From Rhodothermia bacterium (GTDB lineage: Bacteria > Bacteroidota > Rhodothermia > Rhodothermales > UBA2364), in NCBI GenBank assembly GCA_017303715.1, contig JAFLBZ010000009.1, forward strand, positions 62,001 through 126,000: 64,000 bases of DNA. The letters are read 5' to 3'. The position numbers were made by a program, and so were the translations under genes. This document shows, piece after piece, positions 45,137-50,636 of this stretch. Numbering within the stretch: position 1 is the stretch's first letter; each line of letters begins with the position of its first letter. The notes beneath the pieces are model-generated. The model had not been told where the DNA came from and ran no database searches. It saw only the letters and a program-made list of their open reading frames with translations.

Positions 45137-46093
45137 ATGCCCAAAATTGTAGTACTGGATGGCTTCACCCTTAACCCCGGAGACCTCTCGTGGGAAAAGC
45201 TCAAAGCGTTGGGTGAAACCACTGTTTATGACCGCACCGCGTCCCATGAAGTGGAGGAACGTAGCCTTTGCGCGGAAATTCTCATCACAAACAAAGTGCG
45301 GCTTGATGCGGCTCTTATCGAAAGATTGCCTCATCTGAAAGCTATAATGGTGTCCGCAACAGGACACGATGTGGTGGATGGCTTTGCAGCAAGCAAACGA
45401 AACATTCCGGTATGTAATGTGGCCGGATATGGGCCGGATGCCGTAGCACAACATACCTTCGCCCTTTTGCTCGCCCTGATCAATCGGGTGGGGGAATACC
45501 AGAATGACGTGCAAGCCGGTGGTTGGTCACAACGAGGCGATTGGTGTTATTATCTCTATTTTCCCGTCGAATTGGCAGGTAAAACGATAGGATTGGTCGG
45601 ATTTGGTGAAATTGCGCAACGTGTTGCAAAAATTGCAATAGGGTTTGGTATGAAGGTCATTGCTTATACCCCCAATCCTAAGCCGCACCCGAATGTGTCC
45701 TTTACCACGCTGGAGACCGTCTTTAAAGAAAGCGATGTTGTTAGCCTACATTGCCCAATAACACCGGAAAACCGAATGATGGTGAATACAGATCGGCTTG
45801 CAATGATGAAGCAAAGTGCTGTTCTAATTAATACCGCACGCGGAGGGCTGGTGGACGAGGAGGCCTTAAAATTTGCTTTGATCCAAAAAATAATTGCTGG
45901 AGCGGCCTTAGATGTGCTGGCCCAAGAACCGCCGCCATTGGATCATCCTTTGTTTGGAATGGATCATTGCATCATTACCCCACATATCGCATGGGCAGCC
46001 CATGAAACCCGTAAACGATTGCTCCATTTGATGGTAAAAAATATCCGATCTTTTTTGGCCGGAAAGCCTATAAATGTGGTAAATGGCGTATGA
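45137..46093 (+). CDS. D-2-hydroxyacid dehydrogenase (glycerate dehydrogenase/HprA-like)
   Basis: The 318-residue enzyme belongs to the NAD-dependent D-isomer 2-hydroxyacid dehydrogenases, which reduce 2-oxoacids such as hydroxypyruvate or glyoxylate. The NAD-binding loop is TIGLVGFGEIAQRVAKIA (residues 150-167). The catalytic set is complete: Arg235 in INTARGGLVDE, Glu264 in LAQEPPP and His283 in ITPHIAWAAHETR. The N-terminal catalytic domain has the LKAIMVSATGHDVVDGFAA substrate loop, and its GHDVVD form resembles glycerate dehydrogenases. Exact substrate is not decidable. Its stop overlaps the modA start (ATGA at 46090-46093), so the two are translationally coupled despite their unrelated roles. 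Confidence 0.86.
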   Translation: MPKIVVLDGFTLNPGDLSWEKLKALGETTVYDRTASHEVEERSLCAEILITNKVRLDAALIERLPHLKAIMVSATGHDVVDGFAASKRNIPVCNVAGYGPDAVAQHTFALLLALINRVGEYQNDVQAGGWSQRGDWCYYLYFPVELAGKTIGLVGFGEIAQRVAKIAIGFGMKVIAYTPNPKPHPNVSFTTLETVFKESDVVSLHCPITPENRMMVNTDRLAMMKQSAVLINTARGGLVDEEALKFALIQKIIAGAALDVLAQEPPPLDHPLFGMDHCIITPHIAWAAHETRKRLLHLMVKNIRSFLAGKPINVVNGV

Positions 46094-46809
46094 CAAGGCG
46101 CTGCTATATGCTCGTGATGATCGTTTTATTCACTGGATGCCATCCAGGTGAAAAGCCGGAAACCCTTACCGTGTCCGCAGCGGCTTCCCTCGGTGAGGTC
46201 CTGAAAACATTGGTTCAAACTTATAACGCCGAAAACCCCCATCTGCAAATTCGTTTAAATGTGGGAGGGAGCGGGATGTTGGCCCGTCAGATTGAGGCTG
46301 GTGCAAACGTAGATGTTTTTATCTCGGCAGATGTGGCTTGGGCACGTTACTTGGTGAAAAAACAAAAAACAACCTTTATTGACTCGACCACTTTGGGAAA
46401 CAGAATGGCCGTATATGCACAGGATCCATCCTTAAACCTAAATGAGGCCAAGCGATTAGCCTTAGCAGATCCTCGTTCTGTGCCTGCCGGACGATATGCA
46501 AAGGAAGCTCTACAGTGCATGGGCGTTTGGAATAAAGTTTCTGCAAAGATAATCCCTGTACAAGACGTGAAAGCGGTTATTCGTACCATACAAAATGGGG
46601 CCGCTGATCTTGGTTTTGCATATGCCACGGATGCAACGCCAGAGTTGGTAGAACTAAACCTCATTCCGAAGAACTGCCTTCCCGAAATCCGTTATGGCAT
46701 AACCAGTACAATAAAAGGATGGCCTTTTGTACAATTTATAACATCAGAAAAAGCTCATAAGGTACTTGTAAAAAAAGGATTTAGGGTGCTTGGTGAAAAT
46801 GTGTTTTGA
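46090..46809 (+). CDS. modA: molybdate ABC transporter substrate-binding lipoprotein
   Basis: ModA captures molybdate or tungstate for import. The 239-residue protein begins MTRRCYMLVMIVLFTGC, a lipobox with Cys17 as the anchor. The ModA landmarks follow. TVSAAASLGEVLKTL provides the first oxyanion loop, VGGSGMLARQIEAGANVDVFISAD the second, and RSVPAGRYAKEALQCMGVW the third. The C-terminal part ends with GAADLGFAYATDA and WPFVQFITSEKAHKVLVKKGF. It overlaps the upstream dehydrogenase by four bases. The modB gene follows only after 288 bases because a 99-bp inverted-repeat element lies between them. Confidence 0.92.
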   Translation: MTRRCYMLVMIVLFTGCHPGEKPETLTVSAAASLGEVLKTLVQTYNAENPHLQIRLNVGGSGMLARQIEAGANVDVFISADVAWARYLVKKQKTTFIDSTTLGNRMAVYAQDPSLNLNEAKRLALADPRSVPAGRYAKEALQCMGVWNKVSAKIIPVQDVKAVIRTIQNGAADLGFAYATDATPELVELNLIPKNCLPEIRYGITSTIKGWPFVQFITSEKAHKVLVKKGFRVLGENVF

Positions 46810-46972
46810 TTGATATTTAATAACCATTATTGGTTAAGGGCAAGGGCTTCTGGCGGTTAATAACAACCAAGACCAATAGGAATTGACTTCCTAATGATAA
46901 ATCAATAAAGTAGGGGAAAGTTCTAAGAATGGACTTAACAGTTTGAAAACAATATCTTGAAAATCATTGCTA

Positions 46973-47087
46973 ATTTGTTGGGTTCTCTGACAATTTTTGT
47001 GGAAAGCGACTCCTCAAAGCCTTTTAAACGCTTTGAGAGGTGTTAGACACATCGAAATCATAAAAAATGTCAGAGAACCATTTGTTG
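46973..47087. mobile_element. MITE-like element with target duplication between modA and modB
   Basis: The element proper is 46981-47079 (99 bp). Its ends are 18-bp inverted repeats starting GGTTCTCTGACA (46981-46998 and the complement of 47062-47079) with one mismatch at position 13. It is bordered by an identical 8-bp direct repeat ATTTGTTG at 46973-46980 and 47080-47087. Inside is a second hairpin, CTCAAAGC / GCTTTGAG (47013-47037). It encodes no protein. This is the structure of a non-autonomous transposable element moved by a transposase encoded elsewhere. It lies 10 bases upstream of the modB start and may supply or disturb its transcription. Confidence 0.85.
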
Positions 47088-47097
47088 TTGAGATCAC

Positions 47098-47730
47098 ATG
47101 CTCGGAAGTGAATTGCCAGAAATCATCCTGCGGTCATTATGGGTTGCAGCTCTTGCAGTTGGGCTTGGTTTAGTTCCGGCTACGATGCTCGCTTTTCGCC
47201 TATCTCGTGAGCAAAACCTAATCCTTGCCATATTGGAGTACCTTTTGTACGTGCCATTGGTCTTTCCTCCAGTGGTGATCGGATGGCTGTTGCTGCAAAT
47301 AGAAATATTGCAGTTTAATGTCTTGGGGGCTGTGGTTGCTGCATGTGTGGTTTCCTTCCCACTACTTACGCAGACGCTCAGAGCCGCATTTGACCAAATT
47401 GATCCGCGTTTAGAAGAGGCTATAAAAATGGATGGTGGCGGGAAATGGCAGGTTTTTAGGTTTTTATATGTACCTTTGGTCTTGCCCGGATTGGCGGCAG
47501 GTGCTGTTTTGGCCTTTGCAAGGGCATTGGGTGAGTTTGGCGCAACCATCGTGGTAGCCGGAAATATTCCCGGAGTCACAGAAACGATCCCTTTGGCCAT
47601 TTATGCCGCACTTCAAAGACCAGATGGCGATGAAATGCTCTTTCCTTTGTTGGTTACGTGTTTGGCTTTGTCTGCAACTTCGGTACTGGCCCATTCCCTC
47701 CTAAGAATGTTTTCGCGTAAGAGATTGTAA
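47098..47730 (+). CDS. modB: molybdate ABC transporter permease
   Basis: The 210-residue inner-membrane protein has about five hydrophobic helices and the ModB features. The EAA loop is LEEAIKMDGGGKWQVFRFLYVPLVLPGLAAG, which contacts the ATPase. The ModB-specific segment is FARALGEFGATIVVAGNIPGVTETIPLAIY. Length is slightly below the usual 220-230. The ATG at 47098 has only a weak GAG ribosome site. The MITE-like element ends 10 bases upstream. No ModC ATPase gene follows; the next 305 bases are AT-rich and non-coding, so the ATPase must come from elsewhere. Confidence 0.92.
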   Translation: MLGSELPEIILRSLWVAALAVGLGLVPATMLAFRLSREQNLILAILEYLLYVPLVFPPVVIGWLLLQIEILQFNVLGAVVAACVVSFPLLTQTLRAAFDQIDPRLEEAIKMDGGGKWQVFRFLYVPLVLPGLAAGAVLAFARALGEFGATIVVAGNIPGVTETIPLAIYAALQRPDGDEMLFPLLVTCLALSATSVLAHSLLRMFSRKRL

Positions 47731-48035
47731 TCCAATGTTGTTTCATGTTATTATTTTTGAAATCGCCATAAGTTTATAGTATGATACTTTGTTTAAAACA
47801 TTTGTATTTATTTTAATTGACTGTATGTTTTTAGTCATCATTAATAGTTCATCAACTCGAATTTGGCAAATCCGAGCAATGAAAAGCATCGTTACACGCC
47901 TGCTTAGACAAAATGCCGTTTGCAGAATTTGGAAAATTCGCTTACAGAAGTCATTTACATATAGTTTTAATTGAATTAATTTTACTTACCTGTTGACATT
48001 ATGTTGTATAGTTGCTAAATTAATCAAGTAAATTC
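47731..48035 (+). promoter_or_regulatory. AT-rich intergenic region with promoter-like and palindromic sites
   Basis: A TTGACA (47993-47998) and TAAATT (48016-48021) with a 17-base spacer form a sigma-70-like promoter just before the small exported protein at 48036, although the leader would be under 15 bases. Upstream, two related palindromes, ATTTG-G-CAAAT (47861-47871) and GAATTT-GGA-AAATTC (47925-47939), lie 64 bases apart and could be operator sites. No gene is seen in this gap. Confidence 0.35.
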
Positions 48036-48425
48036 ATGATTATATGTGCGTTGTATTACGTTTTGTTGATATTTTCCTTTTCTATAAGCGCTTTTGGCCA
48101 GAATGAGCAAGACCTCTTCGATGTAGAAACAAAGCTCAATATCCAAGACGAAAAAAAACTTTCAACAAAAAGCAAAGACATACTTAAAAACTTAAGAGAT
48201 GATCAGCTCACTTCTAACACTAAAATCGTTAAGTTAAACCCGATTAATAATTTGCGGAATTTGCCTAATATTGCTATAACTATAAACGAACAACTTCAAT
48301 ATTCAGGTAATCATGTTGTTCAATGGAAACGAAAGGATGAAAAAAACGTGTCGAACGGCTATTACATGTATCGTATTAAAATAGGGAGTAAGCAATTTAC
48401 AAAGCCCATCACGGCAATAAAATAA
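48036..48425 (+). CDS. small exported protein, mostly a reduced T9SS-like sorting domain
   Basis: The 129-residue product starts with a signal peptide (MIICALYYVLLIFSFSISAFGQ). About 50 polar residues follow with no recognised domain. The last 40, HVVQWKRKDEKNVSNGYYMYRIKIG and KQFTKPITAIK, resemble the end of a T9SS type A domain, in which G-x-H-x-V-x-W-x-x-x-x-x-x-x-S-G-x-Y-x-Y-R-L precedes the final strand. The NYPNPFNP start of that domain is absent. It may be a secreted peptide carrying only the sorting tail, or the worn end of a larger gene. Codon use is AT-rich like the next gene's body, unlike the rest of the window. Confidence 0.5.
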   Translation: MIICALYYVLLIFSFSISAFGQNEQDLFDVETKLNIQDEKKLSTKSKDILKNLRDDQLTSNTKIVKLNPINNLRNLPNIAITINEQLQYSGNHVVQWKRKDEKNVSNGYYMYRIKIGSKQFTKPITAIK

Positions 48426-48491
48426 TTTTATTATCCTGGAAAATGGCAATTTTAAGGATTGTCAATTCCTATATTTATTTGGAGGAATGTC

Positions 48492-50636
48492 ATGAAAAAC
48501 AAACAATTACTTTTTTGCATCATCCTTTTTCCTTTTTATGCACAGGCACAAATAGCATGGAAGAATTTAGGACAACCACAAGGCTTAATTGTCCCATGTT
48601 CCTTTTATACCGATAGCAAAAAACTCGTTTCTTGTGGACTTACCCACGGGGATGCGATCATAAACTATTCTTATCTTTCACCTGATTTAGGAACAAGTTG
48701 GGAATCGGTATTGGGGAGCAAAAAAAACGAAGATATTAAATACTCAACCTTTATAAGTACCGAGACAGAACACTTAAAAAGGGATAAAACTGGAAATGTT
48801 GTAAAAAGTGGTACGGCTTTAGCAGATGTTACGTTAGGATATATTAAAGTTCTTGATAAAGACTTTAATGTAAAGTCCAATTTTTATATGGCTGATAGAA
48901 CCTATATTTGGGACTTCGACATTTCACCCGAAAATGAAATCTGGATTGCTACAAATAAGGGTCTCTTACGTTCTAATGACGAAAATAAGAGTTATCAAAC
49001 GGTATCATTTGCGAATATAAACACTACAGCAATTACATTCACGGACAAAGGCGAAATCTGGATCGCTACCGAAGATGGTGTTTTTAGGTCGCTAAATCAA
49101 GGTAAAGATTGGAAACAAGTCAGTGCTTTTTACACCGATTCGGATATTTTATATTTCGACCAAATAAATAGGCAAATTTTGGTGATAAACAACACGAGCA
49201 CGCAATGGGGATTCGGTAATAACAAACAAGGTGATATTGAATATGCCCGATTTTCAGAAGAAGGGGTGCTCATTGGAAGCACCGTTTTCAAAAGCAATTA
49301 TGTGTATGATGTGCTGTCTGAAACAAATAAGCATCTGTATTTGGCAACTCAATCGGGTTTATGGGATTCTCAAAACCAAGGAGAAAGTTTCGTTAATACC
49401 ACTGTTCAAGTACCAACCTATCATATTTTAAAGGCTGAGAACCAACTTTTTGCTTCTACACTAAATGGAATTTATGGAACCTCCACAAGCGATGTATCAT
49501 GGGCAAAGAAAGGTATTTCTGGTCTTGATATCACCTCTCTGGCTGCTAATAATACCCTTTTATTTGCGAAAGCGGACAATAATGTATCCGGGCTTTTTTA
49601 TTCAGACGATCATGGCGTTTCATGGAAAGAAAATAATAGCATTATTTCTGGATATGGCAACGTCGCAACAATCAACGACCTTGTTTGTTTAAATATTCAA
49701 TCGGGTACTTGGTGTTCGGAGGACAATGGCGTCACAGGGAAAATTGTTACCAAATTAAATGGAAACATTTATTTACCTTCACCTGAAACGTGGTACATAC
49801 AAGAAAATGATAAAATTTGGATCAGTAAGGATCAAGGTATAAATTGGACAGAAAGAGCCTTGCCTGTCTCCAGTAGTTTTAATAAAGCCATTATTCCAAA
49901 TGAAACCTCCATTTTCATTTCTGGGCTTGAAGGCACGTTTCAATCTAAAAATCAAGGTTTAACATGGGAAAAATTACCTTTTCATTGTTCTCCAACATGC
50001 TCTATTTCGGCGAGTAATCGCAATGGCGTATTGGTAATGTCTAATGGATTGAAACAGCATTATTATACAAAGAATTATGGTGTGTCATGGGAAAAATTTA
50101 CTCTGCCTGAGCATACAATTGCAGAAGAAATTGCAATAAGCCCAAGTGGACAAGTCGCAGTCGCAACTCCAGATAATATCTTATTGGCAGTAGATTTTAA
50201 TACATGGTCGCCTTCCGTTGATGAAACGTCCGTAATGAAAGATACTTATGGAGGTGTTAACGCTCTTTATTTTGATGACAAAAATTTTCTTTATGTAGGA
50301 ATTAAAGGCAATAGCTTATTTCGAAGCCAATTTCCAGTTTCACTTGTCGCCAACGAGCCAGAAACCATTCCTACTCAACTCACTTTGTTTCAAAACTATC
50401 CGAATCCATTCAATCCCGCCACCACCATCAACTTCACGTTGCCACAACCCCAAAACGTACACCTCGAAGTGTTCAATGTACTTGGCCGATCTGTTCATGT
50501 CTTGGCAAATCACCCCTTCGAGGCAGGTCGCCACGAAGTCATGTTCGATGCCAAAGACCTTCCGAGTGGTATCTATGTCTATCGTCTCAAGGCGGGCAAT
50601 ACCGTCATCACCAAGAAGATGAATCTCATTAAATAA
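48492..50636 (+). CDS. T9SS-exported BNR/sialidase-like repeat protein
   Basis: Start ATG 48492 is chosen over the upstream in-frame ATG at 48459 because GGAGG lies six bases before it and a clean signal peptide follows (MKNKQLLFCIILFPFYAQAQ). The 714-residue product carries at least seven BNR-type Asp-box-like repeats: SPDLGTSWESV, NQGKDWKQV, NQGESFVNT, DDHGVSWKEN, DQGINWTER, NQGLTWEKL and NYGVSWEKF. These suggest a six- to eight-bladed propeller like photosynthesis-stability or sialidase folds. Catalytic residues are not evident. The last 85 residues are a T9SS domain (NYPNPFNPATTINFTLPQ ... KKMNLIK). The propeller part is AT-rich, while the tail returns to local GC, suggesting a transferred body joined to a resident sorting tail. 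Confidence 0.78.
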   Translation: MKNKQLLFCIILFPFYAQAQIAWKNLGQPQGLIVPCSFYTDSKKLVSCGLTHGDAIINYSYLSPDLGTSWESVLGSKKNEDIKYSTFISTETEHLKRDKTGNVVKSGTALADVTLGYIKVLDKDFNVKSNFYMADRTYIWDFDISPENEIWIATNKGLLRSNDENKSYQTVSFANINTTAITFTDKGEIWIATEDGVFRSLNQGKDWKQVSAFYTDSDILYFDQINRQILVINNTSTQWGFGNNKQGDIEYARFSEEGVLIGSTVFKSNYVYDVLSETNKHLYLATQSGLWDSQNQGESFVNTTVQVPTYHILKAENQLFASTLNGIYGTSTSDVSWAKKGISGLDITSLAANNTLLFAKADNNVSGLFYSDDHGVSWKENNSIISGYGNVATINDLVCLNIQSGTWCSEDNGVTGKIVTKLNGNIYLPSPETWYIQENDKIWISKDQGINWTERALPVSSSFNKAIIPNETSIFISGLEGTFQSKNQGLTWEKLPFHCSPTCSISASNRNGVLVMSNGLKQHYYTKNYGVSWEKFTLPEHTIAEEIAISPSGQVAVATPDNILLAVDFNTWSPSVDETSVMKDTYGGVNALYFDDKNFLYVGIKGNSLFRSQFPVSLVANEPETIPTQLTLFQNYPNPFNPATTINFTLPQPQNVHLEVFNVLGRSVHVLANHPFEAGRHEVMFDAKDLPSGIYVYRLKAGNTVITKKMNLIK

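Follow-up and report, generated by a model that had tools for sequence, protein, structure and literature searches.

The window (the whole stretch of 64,000 nucleotides that was analysed) contains a modA-like gene for a periplasmic binding protein (46090..46809, plus strand, SBP_bac_11) and, downstream on the same strand, a modB-like permease gene (47098..47730, BPD_transp_1). Between the end of the modA stop codon (46809) and the modB start (47098) lies a gap of 288 bp, which holds a 99-bp element (46981..47079, plus strand). The element is bordered on both sides by a perfect 8-bp duplication, ATTTGTTG (46973..46980 on the left and 47080..47087 on the right, both plus strand). Direct reading agreed with the preliminary description, which had reported a 99-bp segment with 18-bp inverted ends, an inner hairpin and this duplication: the left end, GGTTCTCTGACAATTTTT, and the right end read inward, GGTTCTCTGACATTTTTT, differ by a single mismatch. 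A repeat search extended the 18-bp core to 21 nt at 90% (46981..47001 on the plus strand and 47059..47079 on the minus strand) and placed the hairpin at 47013..47037, with 12-nt arms at 47013-47024 and 47026-47037. Folded as single-stranded DNA, the element reached -25.3 kcal/mol (z -5.97), and none of 200 shuffles folded equally well. No ORF of at least 60 aa was found inside the 99 bp, leaving no coding room for a transposase. Elsewhere in the window, positions 13425-45035 form a single open frame of 10,536 aa, presumably a giant secreted repeat protein by its look, with DUF11-like repeats and a sorting-type C-terminus.

Subtracting the element and one duplicate brings the modA-modB gap to 181 bp, close to the value of about 180 given earlier, and the coordinates likewise agree that the right duplicate ends 10 bp before the modB start. 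The 181-bp remainder (the spacer at 46810..46972, the modB leader and one duplicate) occurs only in this genome (G000) among the three genomes compared (G000 and its congeners G001 and G002), the spacer being absent from both congeners; the stretch 46805-46980 is single copy in its own genome. In G001 and G002, modB starts within the last modA codons, so that the two genes share a few bases. An empty modA-modB allele, which the preliminary description had proposed to look for in relatives, could thus not be aligned, since the overlapping genes offer no spacer for comparison with this copy. Insertion at this position would lengthen the modA-modB spacer and place a hairpin in the modB leader, of which the element and its duplicate leave 10 bp intact. 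This hairpin may alter the modB messenger, and the putative effect of the element on modB is possible and probably small, if any.

A search of the genome for further copies of the ends revealed a second full element (G000:C1:152229-152327), 98/99 identical to the first with a sole difference at position 87. This copy has a perfect 8-bp duplication of its own, TCATTAAT, at either end and lies 36 bp ahead of the start codon (ATG) of cmr1, with which a type III-B CRISPR (Cmr) operon begins. A loose end pattern allowing up to 3 mismatches gave 11 matches in this genome versus 16 for the reversed control, and the only paired ends among these matches were those of the two elements. One end match with 2 mismatches, on C2, was rejected as a further copy, as it has no partner and sits among ordinary genes. 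The Cmr operon (L019 9837-19121, on G000:C1) also carries Septu-like ptuA and ptuB, located between cmr1 and cas10; its interval between cmr3 and cmr4 encodes a CARF/Csm6-type protein.

The congener G002 carries a cmr1 gene that is 67% identical to that of G000. When the flanks of copy 2 were joined, they matched G002 in one alignment of 697 columns (178 bits, 67% identical), whereas the match of the unjoined sequence broke up into two principal segments (141 and 90 bits) plus a third, weak one. Furthermore, the distance from the end of a conserved upstream motif, GGGGTTTAC, to the cmr1 ATG is 214 bp in G000 and 107 bp in G002, a difference of 107 bp that corresponds exactly to 99 + 8. The empty-site argument rests on this spacing, because the joined alignment is just 67% identical and the target octamer is unconserved in G002. 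By this measure, the Cmr site of G002 is an empty site for copy 2. Two copies with two distinct perfect 8-bp duplications, together with the empty site of copy 2, indicate a MITE that has moved, as had been proposed from the window. The element thus combines inverted ends, a duplication of fixed length (ATTTGTTG and TCATTAAT, each perfect and 8 bp), more than one copy and an empty site, and its 99 bp free of a transposase gene fall below the approximately 500 bp used as the size limit for MITEs.

The element was present in none of 59 relatives, its own genome being the sole carrier among 60, and the exact end pattern was found in none of the 393 other phylum genomes sampled (1/394, the own genome). 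A scan of a named genome collection located the end sequence GGTTCTCTGACA in at least 120 loci from at least 18 other assemblies, as counted from the accession prefixes in the locus list. Matches listed come mostly from MAGs of Cytophagales, Lewinella, Saprospiraceae and Microscillaceae, and also from Rudanella. The first ~25 bases of the window element are identical to ends at other Bacteroidota loci, and its inner 59 bp had no match in the fetched loci outside its own genome. End pairs, taken as ends 60-300 bp apart with one end exact and at most 5 mismatches over both, numbered 98 and occurred in 90 of the 120 loci listed. An 8-bp flanking repeat accompanied 36 of these pairs exactly and 50 with no more than one mismatch, whereas random pairing of flanks in 200 shuffles gave 2.0 such repeats on average and never more than 6. 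For lengths 5 to 9, exact flanking repeats numbered 2, 2, 4, 36 and 0, respectively, a peak at 8 alone. This excess over the shuffles indicates that many GGTTCTCTGACA-ended pairs are MITEs with 8-bp duplications; the other 48 pairs, without a good duplication, are old, damaged or chance pairs.

Ends were also seen in Rudanella and in single MAGs of Deltaproteobacteria, Cloacimonadota and Ignavibacteriae (L085, L130, L031 and L034), where MAG contamination is possible; the element in the Ignavibacteriae MAG is 169 bp long and has a perfect duplication of 8 bp. Two MITEs in Lewinella and Saprospiraceae MAGs (L030 2491-2601 and L042 1696-1835) have a common duplication, ATGAAACA, and shared neighbour genes, and are probably one old insertion kept in both, their lengths now being different.

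A profile search with PF01610 (ISL3) in 16 of the 18 end-bearing assemblies matched 6 of them. In G066, an end (GGTTCTCTGACAGTTTTTGTGG / GGTTCTCTGACAGTTTTTGTGGAG) directly follows the C-terminus of an ISL3 transposase (L152); this copy has the exact GGTTCTCTGACA end and a broken frame, and it runs up to a contig end, so that one of its ends is visible. Ends of the form GGTTGTCTGACAATTTTTGTGG / GGTTGTCTGACAATTTTTGTGGAA adjoin ISL3 pieces in G060 (L149) and at six loci of G071 (L148 and L162-L166), and a second ISL3 element of G066 (L147) has the end GGTACTCTGACAATTTTAGTGG / GGTACTCTGACAATTTTAGTGGAC. The ISL3 loci L150, L151, L153-L155, L157-L161 and L167-L169 of the same search showed no such ends at one mismatch or fewer, and at L146 an exact 12-mer lies 119 bp from the transposase domain and faces away, so that only part of the ISL3 family has these ends. 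The G066 transposase has relatives in 49 of the 394 phylum genomes, at 21-44% identity; among the 30 loci retrieved with it (L170-L199), 8 had paired ends, all with at least 4 mismatches to GGTTCTCTGACA. Two further leads on the parent were set aside: an ISL3 remnant in the congener G001 (C16, two stops) has no matching ends, and an all-against-all comparison of ORFs from the 120 listed loci gave no recurring transposase in the groups listed.

The preliminary description had also called for a full-length IS sharing these ends, and one was found on a Bernardetia sp. plasmid (NZ_CP147018.1), none being found in the own genome. This complete ISL3 element is 1,266 bp long, with two identical 20-bp ends, GGTTGTCTGACAATTTTTGT, and an 8-bp duplication, AATAAGAT; its annotated ISL3 transposase was confirmed by PF01610 (1.9e-56) and PF14690. 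The left end of the MITE, GGTTCTCTGACAATTTTTGTGGAAA, matches the left end of the Bernardetia element at 24 of 25 bases, and the GTGGA context of the MITE left end is common to ISL3 ends. Over the end 12-mer, the MITE is matched exactly by the incomplete copy at L152 and at 11/12 by the complete Bernardetia element. ISL3 elements whose ends are identical or almost identical to those of the MITE, and whose duplications are equally long, support a putative parent in this family, so that the parent, previously held to be beyond naming, appears resolved to the family level.

Within its own genome, a draft of 62 contigs, no ISL3 transposase was detected either by PF01610 or by a protein search with the G066 transposase, and a search with the Bernardetia transposase, run without a positive control, gave no matches. 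In this assembly the element is thus orphaned, unless its helper is hidden in an assembly gap; a MITE may outlive its parent.

Our preferred reading, to which we assign a probability of about 0.93, is that the element is a non-autonomous MITE moved in trans by a DDE transposase of the ISL3 family. Such a transposase would bind the GGTTCTCTGACA- ends, mobilise the element and insert it at an 8-bp target, which repair would then duplicate. Since none was found in the 62 contigs, the probable source of the transposase is an ISL3 element that arrived in the genome and later disappeared, or one in unassembled sequence. Against an ISL3 parent, one of the first 12 bases is not the same in the MITE and in the complete ISL3 element; in addition, the MITE interior had no match in any fetched ISL3 locus. 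The preliminary description had left the choice between ISL3 and IS1595, since 8-bp duplications and GG-starting ends also fit the IS1595 family, and the congener G002 does have one IS1595 transposase. Nevertheless, a PF12762 search of the own genome gave no match, just unpaired look-alikes of the end with 3 mismatches occur around the G002 copy, and it is several ISL3 elements that carry the ends; on this evidence, which for IS1595 covers the own genome and the one G002 copy, movement by an IS1595-family transposase is very improbable. Of the two families, ISL3 is supported by its ends and 8-bp duplication, and IS1595 gained no support from the genome and the copy covered.

The element could instead have been retained because it serves the following gene as a regulatory leader, through its hairpin or an outward promoter, rather than persisting as a plain transposon relic. 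Its stable fold and the common orientation of both copies, which precede a gene start by 10 and 36 bp, favor this possibility, but with only two copies a common orientation means little. Simple promoter and terminator scans found nothing significant in the element: promoter-like matches in 46780-47130 numbered 3 versus 0.9 (sd 1.0) expected, one of them inside the element, and no terminator-like site was seen. A Bacteroidota-type promoter pattern gave one weak match (5/6). An Rfam scan of 45500-48500 gave no match, and the near identity of the two copies would have left little time for selection. We therefore regard a regulatory leader as improbable, though less so than IS1595. A palindrome that arose by chance, or a common type of intergenic repeat (REP or terminator) with fortuitous flanking repeats, would account for the hairpin form and nothing else; the second copy, whose perfect duplication is a different one, and the occurrence of the same ends at other loci argue against it, the empty site of copy 2 refutes it, and we give it practically no credence.

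A bolder extension of the ISL3 reading holds that a large part of Bacteroidota shares a MITE superfamily whose members have interiors of unrelated sequence and are driven by a single type of ISL3 end, GGTTCTCTGACA. These MITEs would be able to reach transposase-less genomes, insert into gene leaders in a uniform orientation and alter downstream expression, in this case that of the molybdate permease gene and the CRISPR type III-B operon. We consider this proposal unlikely as a whole, if somewhat less so than a regulatory leader.

Titles and abstracts of open-licence papers yielded no ISL3 MITE from Bacteroidota. The present analysis assigns a driving family to a MITE that was otherwise anonymous and finds the same ends and 8-bp duplications spread as miniature elements over many Bacteroidota assemblies, which is of use for the annotation of these genomes and makes a new mechanism unnecessary. 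The 99-bp element is a real mobile element of an ordinary, already published kind, the ISL3-driven MITEs. According to the report on Microcystis aeruginosa PCC 7806 (PMC11448079), that genome contains a 187-bp MITE driven by ISL3 with 8-nt duplications, a length also produced by the Microcystis ISL3 elements. Both MITEs are short and non-coding, with a stem-loop, 8-nt duplications and ends that match ISL3. In contrast to the window element, the Microcystis MITE has imperfect 9-nt ends, GGCTCTTCG, is present in 31-33 copies, shares its genome with its ISL3 parents and belongs to another phylum. The ISL3 element ISArsp7 (PMC6305408) has ends GGCTCTTCGC... and an 8-bp duplication, CCTTTGCC; GG-starting inverted ends and an 8-bp duplication are common to ISArsp7, the Bernardetia element and the MITE. 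Whereas full-length ISL3 elements encode a transposase, the window MITE is too short to code for one, and its interior is unrelated to theirs. Further close counterparts are the MITEs with GGTTCTCTGACA ends from Cytophagales, Lewinella/Saprospiraceae and other MAGs, which have the same ends and 8-bp duplications but differ from it in their interiors, with 61-266 bp between paired ends.
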